Origin: Spirochaetia bacterium | Lineage (GTDB): Bacteria; Spirochaetota; Spirochaetia; Sphaerochaetales; Sphaerochaetaceae | Direction: 5' to 3' | Length of the DNA: 41,764 nt | NCBI GenBank assembly: GCA_009930325.1 | Contig: RZYO01000012.1 | Span: 1-41,764 of the forward strand | Shown here: positions 33,033 to 41,764 of the stretch, piece by piece | Layout: each line of letters begins with the position of its first letter | How positions within the stretch are numbered: position 1 is the stretch's first letter | Made by a program: the position numbers and the translations under genes | Notes under the pieces: generated by a model | Seen by the model: the letters and a program-made list of their open reading frames with translations, nothing else | The model's database searches: none | Told to the model about the DNA's origin: nothing

Positions 33033-34511
33033 TTAAATATAATTTAAATTTGGTTCAAAATCTTTATCTAATGGATAAATTGGCCTTTCCATATTCTTAT
33101 AAGGCAATCTTTGAAATAATTCGTCTGAAGAACCATCGGTTAAAGCCATAAGGGATCTTTTTGCAATTGCTCGTATTTCTGGCTCTAAATATCCTAACTT
33201 TACGACAATTATTTTCCTTTTTTCAACGTCTACACCTAAAGCTCTCATAATATTCGGGTCGTAACATCCTATATGCTTATCTGAGACTACAACCTCAACA
33301 CCTTCTATATTTATTAATATTAAATTAGTATTTTCAGCTTCTTCAAAATTTTTATATTTACTAATTAATTTTGCCTTTGCTTCAACACTACTACTTTTTT
33401 CAGTATCGTATTTTGCACCTAACTCAATTTCAAGTTGTGTTCCAATGGGTAAGTCAATTAATTTAGATACTAAAGGTTTATCATAGAATGATTGATAAAT
33501 TAATGGAGGATCAAGATTTTTAATTTCATCATTAGCTAATAGCATTTTCAAGAAATTAGTTACATCTGAAGAAGACCCTGCTGTTGGATTATCCCCAGAG
33601 TCAGAAATAACAACTGGATATTCATCATTCTTAACACAATTAATTGAAGTTATTAATGCCTCGTAAGGCATTTTTGTTTCGTTATAAAAACAGAAATCAT
33701 CTCTTTTATTCCAAAATAATTTTGCCAAATCCATAGCTTTAGTTTTTGCTAAACTATCATTGTTTTTTGTTACAACTAGAGCGGTTACTCCATTTTCTTT
33801 AGTATCTGCCCAAGGGAATCCCAGTAGATAAGAACAAGCAAAAATTTCAGAATTAATTTTTTCTTCTGCTCTTAAAATATCTGTTAAACTTTTCATTGGT
33901 TCAACAGAGGTTTCACTTTGTTCACCAGCCACTATAAAAGGAATATGTACAGCGCTCATAGTCGGTTTTATGCCTTTATCTAAAGCTTCAATTACGATAT
34001 TTGCTGCATGAATACCTGTTTCAAAGGTATCTGTATGTGGAGCACATTTATATCCAACATATGCATCACAATACTTAATCATCTTTTCAGTAATAGTAGC
34101 ATGCATATCTAATGATGAAACAATCAATATATCAGGATAAATCTCTCTAATTGATTCAAGCAAATCACCTTCAGCCTCACCAATTCCTTTTACTCTCATT
34201 GAACCATGTAAGGATAAACATAAAGCATCTAAATTTGTAACATTCTTTAGCTTTTTAAGGAATTCATTTTTTAATTCTAAATAATAGTCTTTATCCCATT
34301 CTCCATTAGGAACAGCTCTAGCTACTAAAGTTGGAATTACTTCATAATTATTATCTAATAAAGTTTTTATTATTCCTGAAGCGGAATCTTTACCTAGATT
34401 ATTAATTAGATTTTGATCTCTTTTAATCCAAATATCATCTCTTGATGTTATTATTGGATTAAAAGTGTCAGATTCATGGTGCAACCCACCAACTAACACT
34501 CTCTTTTTCAT
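33033..34511 (-). CDS. M81-family metallohydrolase (MlrC/microcystinase-like)
   Basis: A 492-residue protein of the MlrC family (M81, DUF1485), metal-dependent amide hydrolases of which the only well-studied member opens microcystin degradation products. Zinc-ligand regions are conserved: GGLHHESDTFNP, LSLHGSM, SLDMHATIT and APHTDTFETG. The C-terminal half has SDSGDNPTAGSSSD, also a family trait. It has no signal peptide, so it acts in the cytoplasm. The ATG at 34511 is preceded by AGGAG; an upstream in-frame ATG at 34532 lies inside the ROK gene end and lacks a good site. It is the last gene of an importer operon with CutC and a ROK regulator, so its substrate is probably something imported by that operon. 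Confidence 0.9.
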   Translation of the reverse strand: MKKRVLVGGLHHESDTFNPIITSRDDIWIKRDQNLINNLGKDSASGIIKTLLDNNYEVIPTLVARAVPNGEWDKDYYLELKNEFLKKLKNVTNLDALCLSLHGSMRVKGIGEAEGDLLESIREIYPDILIVSSLDMHATITEKMIKYCDAYVGYKCAPHTDTFETGIHAANIVIEALDKGIKPTMSAVHIPFIVAGEQSETSVEPMKSLTDILRAEEKINSEIFACSYLLGFPWADTKENGVTALVVTKNNDSLAKTKAMDLAKLFWNKRDDFCFYNETKMPYEALITSINCVKNDEYPVVISDSGDNPTAGSSSDVTNFLKMLLANDEIKNLDPPLIYQSFYDKPLVSKLIDLPIGTQLEIELGAKYDTEKSSSVEAKAKLISKYKNFEEAENTNLILINIEGVEVVVSDKHIGCYDPNIMRALGVDVEKRKIIVVKLGYLEPEIRAIAKRSLMALTDGSSDELFQRLPYKNMERPIYPLDKDFEPNLNYI

Positions 34512-34521
34512 CACTTTTCTC

Positions 34522-35658
34522 CTATTCTTCAATCCCGATTGGAGATCTCTTTGTATCCCAACCTTTAAGTCTTGAAGTAACAGATGGCATATTAAATAAA
34601 TACTCTAAAACGAGTTTACTAGCACCTTCACAGATATCCTCTTCATAAGTACTAGATATTGTAAAACAATCACTTTCATTTTCAATTTGACTATTTATGA
34701 TGACATCCATAAGCAAATTTTCCCATTTAGTAAGATATCCACCAATATAAATAATCCTTGGGTCTAATAAACTATGAGCAAAACGTAAATTATCAACAAT
34801 TTCTTTGAAAAATTCTTTTAATATATTTTCATCATTTTCAATATTTGCTAAATCTTCATTTGAGATAGATAATTGTTGATTAAAATCTTTTCCATGATAT
34901 AAAACACTTTTAAATTTTCCGGCATGAGATGTATAACCTCTTCTTAATCTTCCATCAATTACAACACCCATACCAACTCCAACAGGAGGAACACCTTCAG
35001 GAATTTCTGTTGTTTTATAAACTTGGACTAATGCATATATAAATGAATCATTTCCAATGCCCACATGGCTAAATGCTGCACAATTAGCATCATTTTCAAA
35101 AAATATATTATAATTATATTTTTCAGTTAAAGAACTTGTATAATAATTATATAGACCTTGAGTCCAACTAAACATTATCTTCTCGCCTCTTTGATCAACT
35201 ATACCAGCGATTGCTATACAAGCTCCTAAAATCTTATTTGAACAATGTGACTCTAGCTTTCTTAAAACATAATCTACAATAAACTCAAATCTTTCCACAC
35301 TTCCTTTTGGATAAGGAATAATATTGTTATCATATTCTTGAGTAACGTGATATATAATATTTCCACTAAAATCAGTAATATTTGCATGAAAATGATTAAC
35401 CAATAATTCAACTCCAAAAACACATCCATAATTTGAATTCAAGCCTACTAGAGTTCTTCTTCTTCCCATTTTTATATTACTATCTTCACCTTTTTCTTCT
35501 ACTAATCCAATTTCTATTAATCTTGCAATTGCATAAGTAACTGTTGAAGGCTGTAGGGAAAGTTCATCAGCTATTTGTCTTCTTGACAAATACCCTTCTC
35601 TAAGCTTTTGAAGAATTAAAAAATTATTTGTTTCTTTTTGGAATTTACCATTAGCCAT
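34522..35658 (-). CDS. ROK-family transcriptional repressor (NagC/XylR-like)
   Basis: A 378-residue regulator. The N-terminal winged helix (about residues 10-65, LILQKLREGYLSRRQIADELSLQPSTVTYAIARLIEIGLV) is joined to a ROK sugar-kinase-like domain (VELLVNHFHANITDFSGN, AIAGIVDQRGEK, FFENDANCAAFSH, VGMGVVIDGRLRRGYTSHAGKF, DPRIIYIGGYL). The zinc-binding Cys motif of classical ROK proteins is not visible, so ligand binding may differ. It lies one base after cutC in the operon and presumably represses it in response to a sugar-like inducer. Ribosome site AAAGGA is ten bases before the ATG, rather far. Confidence 0.93.
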   Translation of the reverse strand: MANGKFQKETNNFLILQKLREGYLSRRQIADELSLQPSTVTYAIARLIEIGLVEEKGEDSNIKMGRRRTLVGLNSNYGCVFGVELLVNHFHANITDFSGNIIYHVTQEYDNNIIPYPKGSVERFEFIVDYVLRKLESHCSNKILGACIAIAGIVDQRGEKIMFSWTQGLYNYYTSSLTEKYNYNIFFENDANCAAFSHVGIGNDSFIYALVQVYKTTEIPEGVPPVGVGMGVVIDGRLRRGYTSHAGKFKSVLYHGKDFNQQLSISNEDLANIENDENILKEFFKEIVDNLRFAHSLLDPRIIYIGGYLTKWENLLMDVIINSQIENESDCFTISSTYEEDICEGASKLVLEYLFNMPSVTSRLKGWDTKRSPIGIEE

Positions 35659-35659
35659 T

Positions 35660-36400
35660 TTAAATCAATCCTTTTATCGTTTTTACCCTTCTATTATCAG
35701 TATTTGTAATAACAAACTCAGCTTGTCTCAATTCTCCACCCATATAAATATGGTCAGGCTGATAAATCATTTTAGAAGGTTGCCCTTTAGGTAAATATAC
35801 ATGATATTCTTTAGCTTGTAACTCTTTTTTGATAAATTGAAAATTTCTTTCGCTAATTCCACAACCTGGCATAACAATAATATCATCTTTTGCATAACTT
35901 ATCATTTGTTTTAAAGTAACTAATCCTTCCATAACAGTAGCTTCTAATCCACTTGTCAAAACTCTATCAACTTTTAAATCAATTAAAGTTTGAAGAGAAT
36001 CAATTGCAGAGGGACTCATGTCAATTGCTCTATGAAAAGTAACTTCTAAGGGTCTTGCAACTTCTATTAATTGTTGACTTCTCTCTTTATCTATTGTTCC
36101 ATCTGGATTTAAAATTCCAAAAACAATTGCATTAGCGCCTTCTTCTTTGAAAATCTTTGTATTTTCAAGCATTGTTTCAAATTCAATATCTGAATAACAA
36201 AAATCCCCTCCTCTTGGTCTTATCATAACATTCATATCAATAGAGCAATACTTTCTTGCAGTTCTAAACATTCCTAAAGTAGGAGTTAATCCTCCTTCAA
36301 AAAGATCACTACAAAATTCAACTCTGTCAGCACCACCTTCTTGTGCTGCAATAATTGATTCTATATTTTCTAAACATATTTCGATTTTTGGATTAATCAT
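35660..36400 (-). CDS. cutC: CutC-family TIM-barrel protein
   Basis: A 246-residue protein with the CutC signatures: EICLENIESIIAAQEGGADRVEFCSDL, MIRPRGGDFCYS, VTFHRAIDM, VDRVLTSG and IIVMPGCGI. CutC has been linked to copper handling in E. coli, but that assignment is disputed and no copper genes are near. Here it overlaps a sugar-type permease by four bases (ATGA) and is followed by a ROK regulator and an M81 hydrolase. The fold is a TIM barrel, so an enzymatic role in catabolism of the imported compound is an attractive alternative (inference). Length agrees with the family. Confidence 0.93.
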   Translation of the reverse strand: MINPKIEICLENIESIIAAQEGGADRVEFCSDLFEGGLTPTLGMFRTARKYCSIDMNVMIRPRGGDFCYSDIEFETMLENTKIFKEEGANAIVFGILNPDGTIDKERSQQLIEVARPLEVTFHRAIDMSPSAIDSLQTLIDLKVDRVLTSGLEATVMEGLVTLKQMISYAKDDIIVMPGCGISERNFQFIKKELQAKEYHVYLPKGQPSKMIYQPDHIYMGGELRQAEFVITNTDNRRVKTIKGLI

Positions 36401-37245
36401 TCTTTTAAAGCTCCTTCGCCAAAACCTTCTATAAAGGCATTATGGGCAACTAAGTAAAATATAAACATAGGTATAGTTCCTATAACTAAAGCAGCAAATT
36501 GTAATCCATAATCTTGATTCAATCTTCCTGCAAAGGAATTAATTGTAACAGGTAAACTTCTCATGTTTTCTCCACTGGTTAATGTAAATACCATTAAAAA
36601 TTCATTCCAGTTCCCTAAAAAAGTAAGTACAGATATTGTTGCTATAACAGGTGTTGATACAATAAGTATTATTTTCCAAAAAATCTGTTGATATGTTGCA
36701 CCATCAATAATTGCTGCTTCAATTAATGCATCAGGGATTCCTCTAATATAAGAACTTGCAATTAATACAGCCATAGGAAGCCCAAATGCAACATAAGGTA
36801 AAATTACACCTAGATATGTATTATAAAGGCCAGTATTTGTCTCCATTATAAATAAAGGAGTAATAACAGAATTAACTGTTATTAAAAGGCCAACAGTAAA
36901 TAAAGCTGAATAGACTTTTCTACTTTTATAGGGAAATTTTGTAAGTGCAAAACCAGCCTGAATTGACAATAATACAACTAATAAAGTAGATACAGTACTG
37001 TAAATAACGCTATTTAAAAAAGCATAATCCATATTACCAAATTCAATACATTTCTTATAATTATCTAATGTAAAATCTTTTGGTAAAGATAATGGATGCA
37101 TCATAATCTCACCCATACTTTTAAAAGATGAATAAGACATCCAAATAATTGGAAATAAAGTTACTAAAGTAAATAAAATCAAAAAAGTATATGAAAATAC
37201 GATAGTATGAACTGAAATTTTTCTTTCTCTTAAATTGTTTTTCAT
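36397..37245 (-). CDS. ABC importer permease, MalG type (third importer)
   Basis: A 282-residue CUT1-type inner-membrane subunit with six hydrophobic helices. The EAA loop is LIEAAIIDGATYQQIFWKIILIV, and the end is typical of the class (AHNAFIEGFGEGALKE). AGGAG precedes the ATG, nine bases after the previous permease. It is fused into the operon by a four-base overlap with cutC. Confidence 0.93.
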   Translation of the reverse strand: MKNNLRERKISVHTIVFSYTFLILFTLVTLFPIIWMSYSSFKSMGEIMMHPLSLPKDFTLDNYKKCIEFGNMDYAFLNSVIYSTVSTLLVVLLSIQAGFALTKFPYKSRKVYSALFTVGLLITVNSVITPLFIMETNTGLYNTYLGVILPYVAFGLPMAVLIASSYIRGIPDALIEAAIIDGATYQQIFWKIILIVSTPVIATISVLTFLGNWNEFLMVFTLTSGENMRSLPVTINSFAGRLNQDYGLQFAALVIGTIPMFIFYLVAHNAFIEGFGEGALKE

Positions 37246-37254
37246 ATCTTTCTC

Positions 37255-38142
37255 CTAATTATATTTCTTACCAATTTTTTCAAACATTCTTTGACATATA
37301 GTAATTAAACCAACACTTAAAATAACTATTATTATTGAAACAGCACTACCATATCCATAATTATTAAATGTAAAGGTTTGTTGATATAAATAAAGGGCCA
37401 TTACATAAGTATAATGAACTGGTCCACCTCCAGTCATAGCAAAAACTAGATCGAAACTCTTCAAACTACCTGAGATTGCTAAAACAGAACATGTATATAT
37501 AACACCGGCTAAAGCTGGCAATACTATTTTTCTAACTATTGTAAATTCTGAAGCACCATCAATTGTTGCAGCTTCAAATACTGACTTTGGTATTCTTTGT
37601 AAATTTGCAATAAAAATAACCATATATAAACTTGTATGTTGCCATAGTAATACAAATAATACAGGAACAATTGCATGTTTTTCATTTTCAAATATTTTTA
37701 CAACATAATCAGGATTATCAGTTACACTTCTTATAAATGTTGTATATATTCCAACAGGAGAAAAAACTCTATTCCATAACAATGCTACAACAATAGATGA
37801 AATTGTAATTGGTAAAAAAATCATCATTTCAAAAAATTGACTACCACGAACCCATTTCCTAAATAGCAAATAAGCTAATATTATTCCAAGAGGAATTTGT
37901 CCTAAAACCGAGAGAAGCATTATTTTTACATTATTTTTTACTGCTATTTGGAAAATAGGGTCTTTAACTATGTTTATATAATTTTGGATGCCAACAAAAC
38001 CTTTTAATTGGAAATGTCTCCATTTTGTAAAGGATAGTCCAAAACTTACAACAACTGGAAATATTATTATTGCTATATATATAATAAAAGCTGGTAATAA
38101 TAAGCTTAAATAACTCATTTTTTTATTCTTATCTCTTATCAT
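37255..38142 (-). CDS. ABC importer permease, MalF type (third importer)
   Basis: A 295-residue CUT1-type inner-membrane subunit with six hydrophobic helices. The EAA loop reads VFEAATIDGASEFTIVRKIVLPA, and FDLVFAMTGGGP near the C-terminal part is the class hallmark. AAAGGGGGG precedes the ATG. A hairpin separates it from the binding-protein gene upstream. It pairs with the MalG-type permease downstream; no ATPase gene is in the operon. Confidence 0.93.
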   Translation of the reverse strand: MIRDKNKKMSYLSLLLPAFIIYIAIIIFPVVVSFGLSFTKWRHFQLKGFVGIQNYINIVKDPIFQIAVKNNVKIMLLSVLGQIPLGIILAYLLFRKWVRGSQFFEMMIFLPITISSIVVALLWNRVFSPVGIYTTFIRSVTDNPDYVVKIFENEKHAIVPVLFVLLWQHTSLYMVIFIANLQRIPKSVFEAATIDGASEFTIVRKIVLPALAGVIYTCSVLAISGSLKSFDLVFAMTGGGPVHYTYVMALYLYQQTFTFNNYGYGSAVSIIIVILSVGLITICQRMFEKIGKKYN

Positions 38143-38201: not shown

Positions 38202-39515
38202 TTATTCTCTATTGGTGTCGTTTTGTGCTACCCATTTTTCATATTGAGCAGCTATTTCTTTTGGATCACCATTACCCATCATCATAGCTTGAATATTTGC
38301 ATTTAATAGAGATACACCTTCACCATTCATTACTGAGTCAAATACATAACCCATTTCATGATCAATTTGGAATTGTGCGTATTTCTTTTGCATAATACCC
38401 ATTTCAATATTACTAAAATCAATATTACATGTAGGGATATCACCATGTTCAGCAAAAATCTTTGAACCTTCTTCACCAGTATAGAAAGCAATAAATTTCC
38501 ATGCAGCATCAGCTTTTGCAGTGCCTTCAATTGCTTTTGCAATACCAAAACCTTCACCTGTAACAGCTGTTGAAGTATTACTTCTTACTTCACCATTAAT
38601 AGCTGGGAATACATGCATTTCAATGTTTTTGTTAAATTCTTCAGATAGTTGAGAATCCATTCCACCTGATCTCCAACCAGCATCGATTAGATATACAGAT
38701 TTACCTTGATAGAATTCTTGGTCAGCTTCTCCATTACCCATTTGGTTAACACCAGGTGAGAATAGGTTTTCATCAGTCATTTCTTTGATAATTTCTAATG
38801 TTTTTACAAATTGAGGATCAGTAAATTTAGCACCATTCTTTCCAGTTGCTGCATCCATAAACCACTGTGGTCCACCAGTTCTATCAACAAGTAGAGACAA
38901 TAACCATGAATTTACAACCTATTGGTCTTTATTTCCCATTGAAATTGGATAATAACCTGCTGCTCTAATTGTTGGAACTTGAGCAATCATTTCTTCAAAT
39001 GTTTTTGGATAGTCTAAACCTAATTCATCTAAAATAGCTCTATTTGCATAAACTACATGACAAACTGCAAGAGTTGGAGGAATCATCCATAATTCACCAT
39101 TTGCACCTTGAGCTTTAAATGTAACAGGTTTAAATTGAGATTTAAAATCAGAAGTTAAATAACTTGTTTTATTTAAATCTAAAACTAATCCTGCATCTTG
39201 GATATATGCTGTTCTTGCTCCACCATAACAAGTAAAAATATTTGGTATTTTTCTTGAAGCGGCCATAGCTTGGAATTTTTGGTGAAAAGCTTCACCAGAA
39301 GCATACTCAATATCTAATTTAATATTAGGATATTCTTTTTCAAAAGCTTCGATTACTGCATTGTGTCCTGCATAAGCTGGATTTGCTGGGTCAATTTGCA
39401 TGTACCCTGTTAATGTAATAACGCCATCATCACTAACACTTTCTTTTGCACCTGATGCAAAGATACTAGTAACTGCAATTAAACTTACCATTACTAATGC
39501 TAAAATTTTTTTCAT
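38202..39515 (-). pseudogene. ABC importer binding protein interrupted by an in-frame TAG
   Basis: A sugar-binding protein of 437 codons with a TAG at codon 199 (38921-38919). Before it lie a signal peptide ending FASGAKE and a full family-1 N-lobe, up to YYPISMGNKDQ. After it the same frame continues at once with VVNSWLLSLLVDRTGGPQWF and runs to the normal end (WVAQNDTNRE), with no shift or deletion. The homologous position in such proteins is usually tryptophan (GNKDxW), so TGG to TAG is the simplest cause. The first half alone would not be functional, and no ribosome site precedes a restart codon. Start at the ATG at 39515, with GGAGG upstream. The rest of the operon is intact, so readthrough, suppression or sequence error must be considered. 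Confidence 0.9.
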
Positions 39516-39537: not shown

Positions 39538-39579
39538 ACTTATTTCATTCACTGAATTATATAAACGGATACTTATTTC
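39538..39579. promoter_or_regulatory. Direct repeats flanking the -10 of the third importer promoter
   Basis: ACTTATTTC occurs exactly at 39538-39546 and 39571-39579, 33 bases apart (about three helix turns), one on each side of the TATAAT. TTCACTGAA (39548-39556), a small palindrome, lies between. These are candidate operator sites for the ROK regulator of the same operon. Confidence 0.4.
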
Positions 39580-39585
39580 TGTCAA
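39556..39585 (-). promoter_or_regulatory. Promoter of the third importer operon
   Basis: On the minus strand perfect TTGACA (39585-39580) and perfect TATAAT (39561-39556), spacer 18 bases. The predicted leader is about 35 bases with a good ribosome site. It is the most consensus-like promoter in the window. Confidence 0.8.
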
Positions 39586-39790: not shown

Positions 39791-41764
39791 TTATTCAGAG
39801 AGAATAATTTCTAGCAAAGAATTATATAAATCATTATCAAGATTTAAAGCAATAAGATTTGAAATAATTAAATCATTGTTTTCTAATTGAAGAATTTTAA
39901 ATATTTTATCTTTCAATTTAATACTCATCTCACATCTTTCGAGAATTTCTCTTAATATTTCAATTTTATCTTGTTTTGCTAATTTAATATTTTCAAATAT
40001 AATTTTTGTTCTTGATTTAACATTAATATCATATAAATTAATATTTAATTCTTTTTTATCATTATCATATTCTTTTTTAAATTCAATTTCGATATCATCA
40101 TTAAATATTTTTATTTCAGTATCACAAATACCAACAAATGCAATTTGATAATCTCTGATATTAGGGATTAAAGACAAATCACCAACTGCTTGTTCAATTT
40201 TAAACTCACTATTATCAAAATCATTTACAAACTTTGTAATGACATTTTTATTATCCAAATAATCTTCACTAATATTATCATCTTCATAAAGAGAAAAACT
40301 TCCATTATCACCCATATATGATTTAATTAATAATGATTTAGGATTTTTAGAATTATCTTCATCATTTGATAATACTAAAATATCCCCTTCTTTTATAAAT
40401 ATTGGGATAGTATCTAAAGGTCTGTATACTTTTAATCTTCTATCTCCAATATATCTTTTAGATGAAAAGAAATCATAATAAGTACCTTTTGGGAGCCAAA
40501 CAATAGATGAGGCCATTGAAAGTTTTTTATTTTGTTCTTCAATAATTGGAGATACAATCATAGATGAACCAAAATAATATTGAGATTCAACTTCATAAGC
40601 TTGTGAATCTTCACTATGGTAATAATACATAGCTCTAATTAAAGGAATATCATTCTTCCATGAGTGATAATTCATAGTATAAATATAAGGAATAAGCTTA
40701 TTTCTCAATTGCAAAAAGTTAATCATTACGTCTTGGGTTTCTTTATTAAATTTCCAAGGTTCTTTTGAATTAAATATTTCATTACTACTATGCAATCTCA
40801 TAATTGGAGAAAAAACACCAAATTGTGTCCAACGGGCCATAAGTTCATTATCCTTATACCCTCTCATATGCCCGCCTATATCATGAGACCACCAACCATA
40901 CCCAATATTTGATGCACATATAGTAAATTTAGGTTGAAAAGCTAAAGATTTCCAAGAAATTATAGTATCTCCAGAAAATCCAATTGGATATCTATGAGAG
41001 CCAACTCCAGCATAGCGAGAAAAAATTAATGGCCTTTTATTCTCTTTCTTTGCAGAATTAAATCTATGATAATTCAAAATCCAAAGAGGATCTAAGCCTT
41101 CAAGCTTTGAAGTATTTCCTTGTTGCCAATCTATCCACCAGAAATCAACACCATCATTTTCTAATGGTTCTAATATAATGGTTTGTAAAGAATCTAAATA
41201 TTTTTTATCACTAGCGTCAAATAGGACAGCTCGACCCTCATCAACACCCATTTCTTTTGCTATTTTATCATAATTATCTTCAAAGGATCTAACACCATCT
41301 GCGGGGTGATCATTAAGAGTAACTTTTAAGGCTCTTTTGTGCAATTCTTCTAAAAAAGCTTTTGGGTCTGGAAATAATTCCTTATTCCAAGTATACCCTG
41401 TCCAACCACTTCCAAAATTTTTATCAATATCTACTAGATGCCAATCCATATCTATAACTGCAACAGAAAAGGATATATTATTTTCTTTAAATCTATCTAA
41501 GAGTGCTAAATAACTTTCACTTGTATATTTGTAATATCTACTCCACCAATTGCCCAATGCATAGCGAGGTATCATAGGAGTTTTTCCACTCAATTTATAA
41601 AAGTCTTTTAAACATTGCAAATAATTATGATTATAGCCAAAGAAATATATATCTTTATTTCCTTTAGCTCTTGGAACATAAAAATCATTAACTTCTAACA
41701 TTGAAGAAGAATCATCAATTATAGAAAAGCCTCTTCTTGATAATAATCCAGCTTCTAATTCAAT
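39791..41764 (-). CDS. GH31 alpha-glucosidase/alpha-xylosidase-type glycosidase (5' end outside window)
   Basis: At least 657 residues, read in from the right edge (visible start IELEAGLLSRRGFSIIDDSS, the GH31 N-terminal domain end). The barrel follows: MIPRYALGNWWSRYYKYTSE, FSVAVIDMDWH, the nucleophile segment DFWWIDWQQG and the acid/base region PIGFSGDTIISW, then CASNIGYGWWSHDIGGHM, WTQFGVFSPIMRLHSS and the beta-rich C-terminal part (VWLPKGTYYDFFSS). The WIDWQQG form is that of a GH31 subgroup distinct from classical alpha-glucosidases with WxDMNE. No export signal can be judged because the start is missing. An internal ATG at 41701 is not the start, because the frame and homology run on upstream. 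It precedes the third importer operon but has its own terminator. Confidence 0.92.
   Translation of the reverse strand: MELEAGLLSRRGFSIIDDSSSMLEVNDFYVPRAKGNKDIYFFGYNHNYLQCLKDFYKLSGKTPMIPRYALGNWWSRYYKYTSESYLALLDRFKENNISFSVAVIDMDWHLVDIDKNFGSGWTGYTWNKELFPDPKAFLEELHKRALKVTLNDHPADGVRSFEDNYDKIAKEMGVDEGRAVLFDASDKKYLDSLQTIILEPLENDGVDFWWIDWQQGNTSKLEGLDPLWILNYHRFNSAKKENKRPLIFSRYAGVGSHRYPIGFSGDTIISWKSLAFQPKFTICASNIGYGWWSHDIGGHMRGYKDNELMARWTQFGVFSPIMRLHSSNEIFNSKEPWKFNKETQDVMINFLQLRNKLIPYIYTMNYHSWKNDIPLIRAMYYYHSEDSQAYEVESQYYFGSSMIVSPIIEEQNKKLSMASSIVWLPKGTYYDFFSSKRYIGDRRLKVYRPLDTIPIFIKEGDILVLSNDEDNSKNPKSLLIKSYMGDNGSFSLYEDDNISEDYLDNKNVITKFVNDFDNSEFKIEQAVGDLSLIPNIRDYQIAFVGICDTEIKIFNDDIEIEFKKEYDNDKKELNINLYDINVKSRTKIIFENIKLAKQDKIEILREILERCEMSIKLKDKIFKILQLENNDLIISNLIALNLDNDLYNSLLEIILSE

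Follow-up and report, generated by a model that had tools for sequence, protein, structure and literature searches.

A single in-frame TAG codon interrupts an otherwise intact sugar-binding protein gene in a spirochaete genome

Introduction

Nonsense-mutated bacterial genes are known as incipient pseudogenes, in which a lone in-frame stop is found in a gene that is otherwise intact and recently constrained, and whose orthologues are also intact. Stops within the reading frame have been reported to occur widely in bacterial genes, and many of them have been argued to be read through (Belinky et al. 2021, PMC7918605). That study required a stop to recur at one position in at least two genomes, and its cases combine purifying selection with suspected readthrough. 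In-frame stops have also been related to errors in the inference of genetic codes. In a screen for alternative codes, tryptophan was wrongly assigned to UAG or UGA in some yeasts, which the authors blame on in-frame stops in pseudogenes, mostly due to single changes (PMC8629427).

The gene analyzed here encodes an ABC sugar-binding protein with an in-frame TAG. It lies in a stretch of 41,764 nucleotides, called the window hereafter, from the draft genome of an uncultured environmental spirochaete. Like the incipient pseudogenes, it carries one stop in an otherwise intact and recently constrained gene with intact orthologues, and no notable difference from them was observed, the case being known from one assembly only. 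Like the cases of Belinky et al. (2021, PMC7918605), it shows a TAG with conserved flanks, but the stop is present in one genome here and not in two or more. Concerning the protein, the best matches of solved structure are ABC-importer proteins that bind xylo- and chitin-oligosaccharides (PDB 4g68, 7eho, 8xba and 3vxb), which share the fold with 20-24% identity over about 400 columns in a fold comparison. In contrast to these, the gene is interrupted here.

The interrupted gene and its operon

The gene is encoded on the minus strand, from 39515 to 38202; the sequence-only reading that preceded this analysis gave no strand. Its frame of 437 codons starts with the ATG at 39515 and ends with the TAA at 38204-38202. 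Codon 199 (38921-38919) is TAG, all the other codons are open, and the gene has no frameshift. The previous description of a stop in an otherwise open frame, with no frameshift or loss accompanying it, is thus borne out. The read-through translation is 437 residues long and contains a signal peptide as well as an SBP_bac_1 domain (PF01547) whose profile match reaches 99.7 bits against a cut-off of 26, and the 5' and 3' pieces each match this profile separately. The features of the locus are displayed in Table 1.

The gene heads an operon with two BPD_transp_1 permeases, as family membership requires, and AAGGAGGA is located directly before the ATG as a strong ribosome site. The same operon, with the gene order kept and 82% DNA identity, is present in a same-genus relative (G001, which matches Pleomorphochaeta sp. 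JB015), and the five downstream genes are collinear with those of this relative. The promoter, the ribosome site, the second half of the gene and the five downstream genes had been proposed to be intact, which agrees with the consensus promoter, with AAGGAGGA, with the dN/dS values described below and with the collinearity with G001. The presence of CutC-family, ROK and MlrC/M81 genes in a sugar-importer operon (33033-36400) should also be noted, their order being that of G001. Upstream of the importer there is a GH31 glycosidase gene (39791-41764), which is cut by the contig end; a different gene occupies this place in G001.

Table 1. Position and strand of the features of the interrupted sugar-importer operon in the window
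Feature	Position	Strand	Basis
Promoter TTGACA-18-TATAAT, perfect consensus	39556..39585	-	Sequence
ABC sugar-binding protein gene, 437 codons, interrupted at codon 199	38202..39515	-	SBP_bac_1, PF01547
5' part: signal peptide and residues 1-198	38922..39515	-	SBP_bac_1 profile positions 11-148
In-frame TAG, codon 199; TGG in all relatives	38919..38921	-	Sequence and homologue comparison
3' part, constrained like the 5' part against G001	38202..38918	-	dN/dS 0.107
ABC permease 1 (BPD_transp_1), intact	37255..38142	-	Profile and G001 comparison
ABC permease 2 (BPD_transp_1), intact	36397..37245	-	Profile and G001 comparison
CutC-family gene, intact	35660..36400	-	G001 comparison
ROK-family regulator, intact	34522..35658	-	G001 comparison
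M81/MlrC-like metallopeptidase, intact	33033..34532	-	G001 comparison

Conservation of codon 199

A scan of the collection revealed that all 55 homologues have tryptophan at the site of codon 199, encoded by TGG in every case, and the ten relatives aligned in A1 have tryptophan there as well. That is, the in-frame stop stands where the intact relatives carry a sense codon, as in an incipient pseudogene. The sequence-only reading had placed the tryptophan of the family after GNKD. More exactly, the motif is GNKD-Q-[W/stop], with a glutamine codon between GNKD and the stop.

In G001, the binding-protein gene is intact, has TGG at codon 199 and encodes a protein with 90% identity. Homologues ending at the same point had been named as evidence that would speak against the previous reading; none of the 55 ends there or has a stop at codon 199. 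In this comparison, the binding protein departs from no other column that is invariant among the relatives, and the alignment agrees with the single TGG-to-TAG change proposed before, in a gene otherwise undamaged. Since TGG is found in G001 and in the 55 homologues, the stop struck a fully conserved residue, and to judge from these sequences the TAG would most simply have arisen after the divergence from G001. A homologue of the gene from a different spirochaete draft genome (L133, Spiro_04 record LVBF01000013) carries an in-frame TAA at codon 271 of the match, in a conserved stretch.

Use of TAG in the genome and search for suppressors

TAG terminates six of the 34 ORFs listed in the window, and 105 of the 623 ORFs of at least 150 amino acids (17%) counted in 0.8 Mb of the 3.5 Mb genome. 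The response regulator gene is one of the six, as had been noticed from the sequence. Furthermore, RF1 is present and intact; an apparent stop within it was rejected, being its own terminator. A reassignment of TAG to tryptophan or any other residue throughout the genome has nothing in its favor apart from codon 199 itself, and the use of TAG as a terminator together with the intact RF1 excludes a TAG-recoded genetic code for practical purposes, in line with the earlier opinion that global recoding was unlikely.

Neither a covariance model with ARAGORN nor a pattern search revealed a tRNA with a CUA anticodon, among 38 recovered tRNAs that include no tryptophan tRNA. The tRNA set is therefore incomplete, and the absence of a suppressor is only suggestive. 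The hits of the suppressor pattern were not in excess over a reversed-pattern control; those that represent tRNA genes are Arg(TCT) and Leu(TAG), neither of them CUA. The incomplete tRNA with which contig C46 begins reads by eye as Glu(TTC). Neither the genome nor its relatives gave a PylS match above the cut-off, and pyrrolysine was discarded because the weak matches below the cut-off are those expected of other tRNA synthetases. Regarding the RNA around the stop, it folds no better than its shuffles (z 0.12), with no unusual structure. Local recoding at codon 199 is thus unsupported.

Selection on the two halves of the gene

Against G001, dN/dS was 0.111 ahead of the stop (codons 1-198) and 0.107 past it (codons 200-437), both inside the range of the neighboring genes (0.05-0.19). 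A conserved frame of 238 codons past the stop with such a value is not a random ORF and represents more than chance. Relaxed selection was not seen in either half against G001, but it would not be expected yet after a very recent event. Because this dN/dS averages both lineages, a very recent death and a working gene are indistinguishable by it, and the equal values of the two halves are those expected in both situations.

Possible explanations of the stop

The codon, its invariance in the relatives, the intact remainder of the gene and operon, and the standard code are observed. They point to a single, very recent TGG-to-TAG nonsense mutation as the probable explanation, which would disable the importer in the sampled strain. 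One G-to-A transition, recent in this lineage or strain, would have changed the TGG of the invariant tryptophan in an otherwise healthy sugar-importer gene. Translation would then stop after residue 198, leaving a product that keeps the signal peptide but has the two-lobed fold in part. In the predicted structure, the stop precedes the helix 203-224 and everything that follows. In the two-lobed fold of this family, the region from the start of that helix onwards comprises a large part of the C-terminal lobe, together with the strands returning to the N-terminal lobe. Lacking codons 199-437, the product should not form the complex with bound sugar, so the permeases would not be fed and the importer should be inactive, a first step to pseudogenization. 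The expression of the downstream genes could also be lowered by polarity. The TAG allele is presumably genuine and has gone to fixation in the strain that was sampled, the truncated product would be non-functional, and the change is probably recent given that no further decay is present. Moreover, of the 34 ways in which a single transition can create a stop in this gene, 14 involve a tryptophan codon, and the case therefore fits the pattern described in the genetic code screen (PMC8629427).

The main rival, less likely but with a real share of the probability, is a consensus error or a minority allele, in which case most cells would have TGG and the gene would work. The source genome is a 3.5 Mb draft of 413 contigs, 92% complete and with an estimated contamination of 7.9%; the fragmentation and contamination favor this rival and, like the representation of the species by one assembly, count against a recent nonsense mutation. 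Only one base is changed while all else is intact, and a second single-base stop is found on the same contig, which also speak for an error or minority allele. This second stop is a lone TAA (22872-22870) in a gene of the VOC/glyoxalase family (PF00903; 22747-23145, minus strand) whose remaining frame is conserved; the site is Phe in G001 and Tyr in the relatives G003 and G005, with the gene intact in all three. The two stops in the window are, however, the only genuine mid-gene stops among about 50,000 codons compared with G001 (about 150 orthologue pairs, within the same 0.8 Mb), with zero frameshifts in this genome, a count filtered by hand in which most raw internal stops were antisense ORFs or misplaced starts or ends. 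This indicates that the assembly is not generally poor. In addition, the locus has no second copy in the assembly. The next match in the genome is 34% identical, and a paralogue replacing the interrupted gene was rejected on the same grounds. Still, the occurrence of both stops on the same contig would fit local strain variation, relaxed selection or error.

Functional readthrough or suppression, in which the TAG is decoded usefully to give a low and possibly regulatory amount of full-length binding protein, is improbable. It would agree with the low and equal dN/dS of both halves and with the arguments of Belinky et al. (2021, PMC7918605), but that dN/dS covers all the divergence from G001 and is blind to a recent event. 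RF1 is present, the stop occurs in one genome and, being absent from the 55 relatives, is not itself conserved. The negative searches for a CUA-anticodon tRNA (in the incomplete set), PylS and a special RNA structure also lean against suppression. Still less credible is a lineage-specific, tolerated TAG, read through weakly, that would set the amount of a binding protein normally in excess over the permeases. As for a restart after the stop, with the two halves acting jointly as a split protein, there is an in-frame TTG at 38900, but it is not preceded by an evident ribosome site, and the C-terminal piece would lack a signal peptide and so be unable to join the exported N-terminal piece, which makes this the most doubtful of these possibilities. 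Recent gene death, readthrough or suppression, and a variant or error were the options offered by the sequence-only reading; this reading is supported, and the results point more toward recent loss of the gene or a strain variant than toward suppression.

Significance

The recent nonsense mutation would be one further example of ordinary bacterial gene loss by a single change, caught before more decay. If readthrough were true instead, this would be a natural TAG readthrough in a spirochaete with the standard code, and it would therefore bear on how many annotated bacterial pseudogenes actually work.
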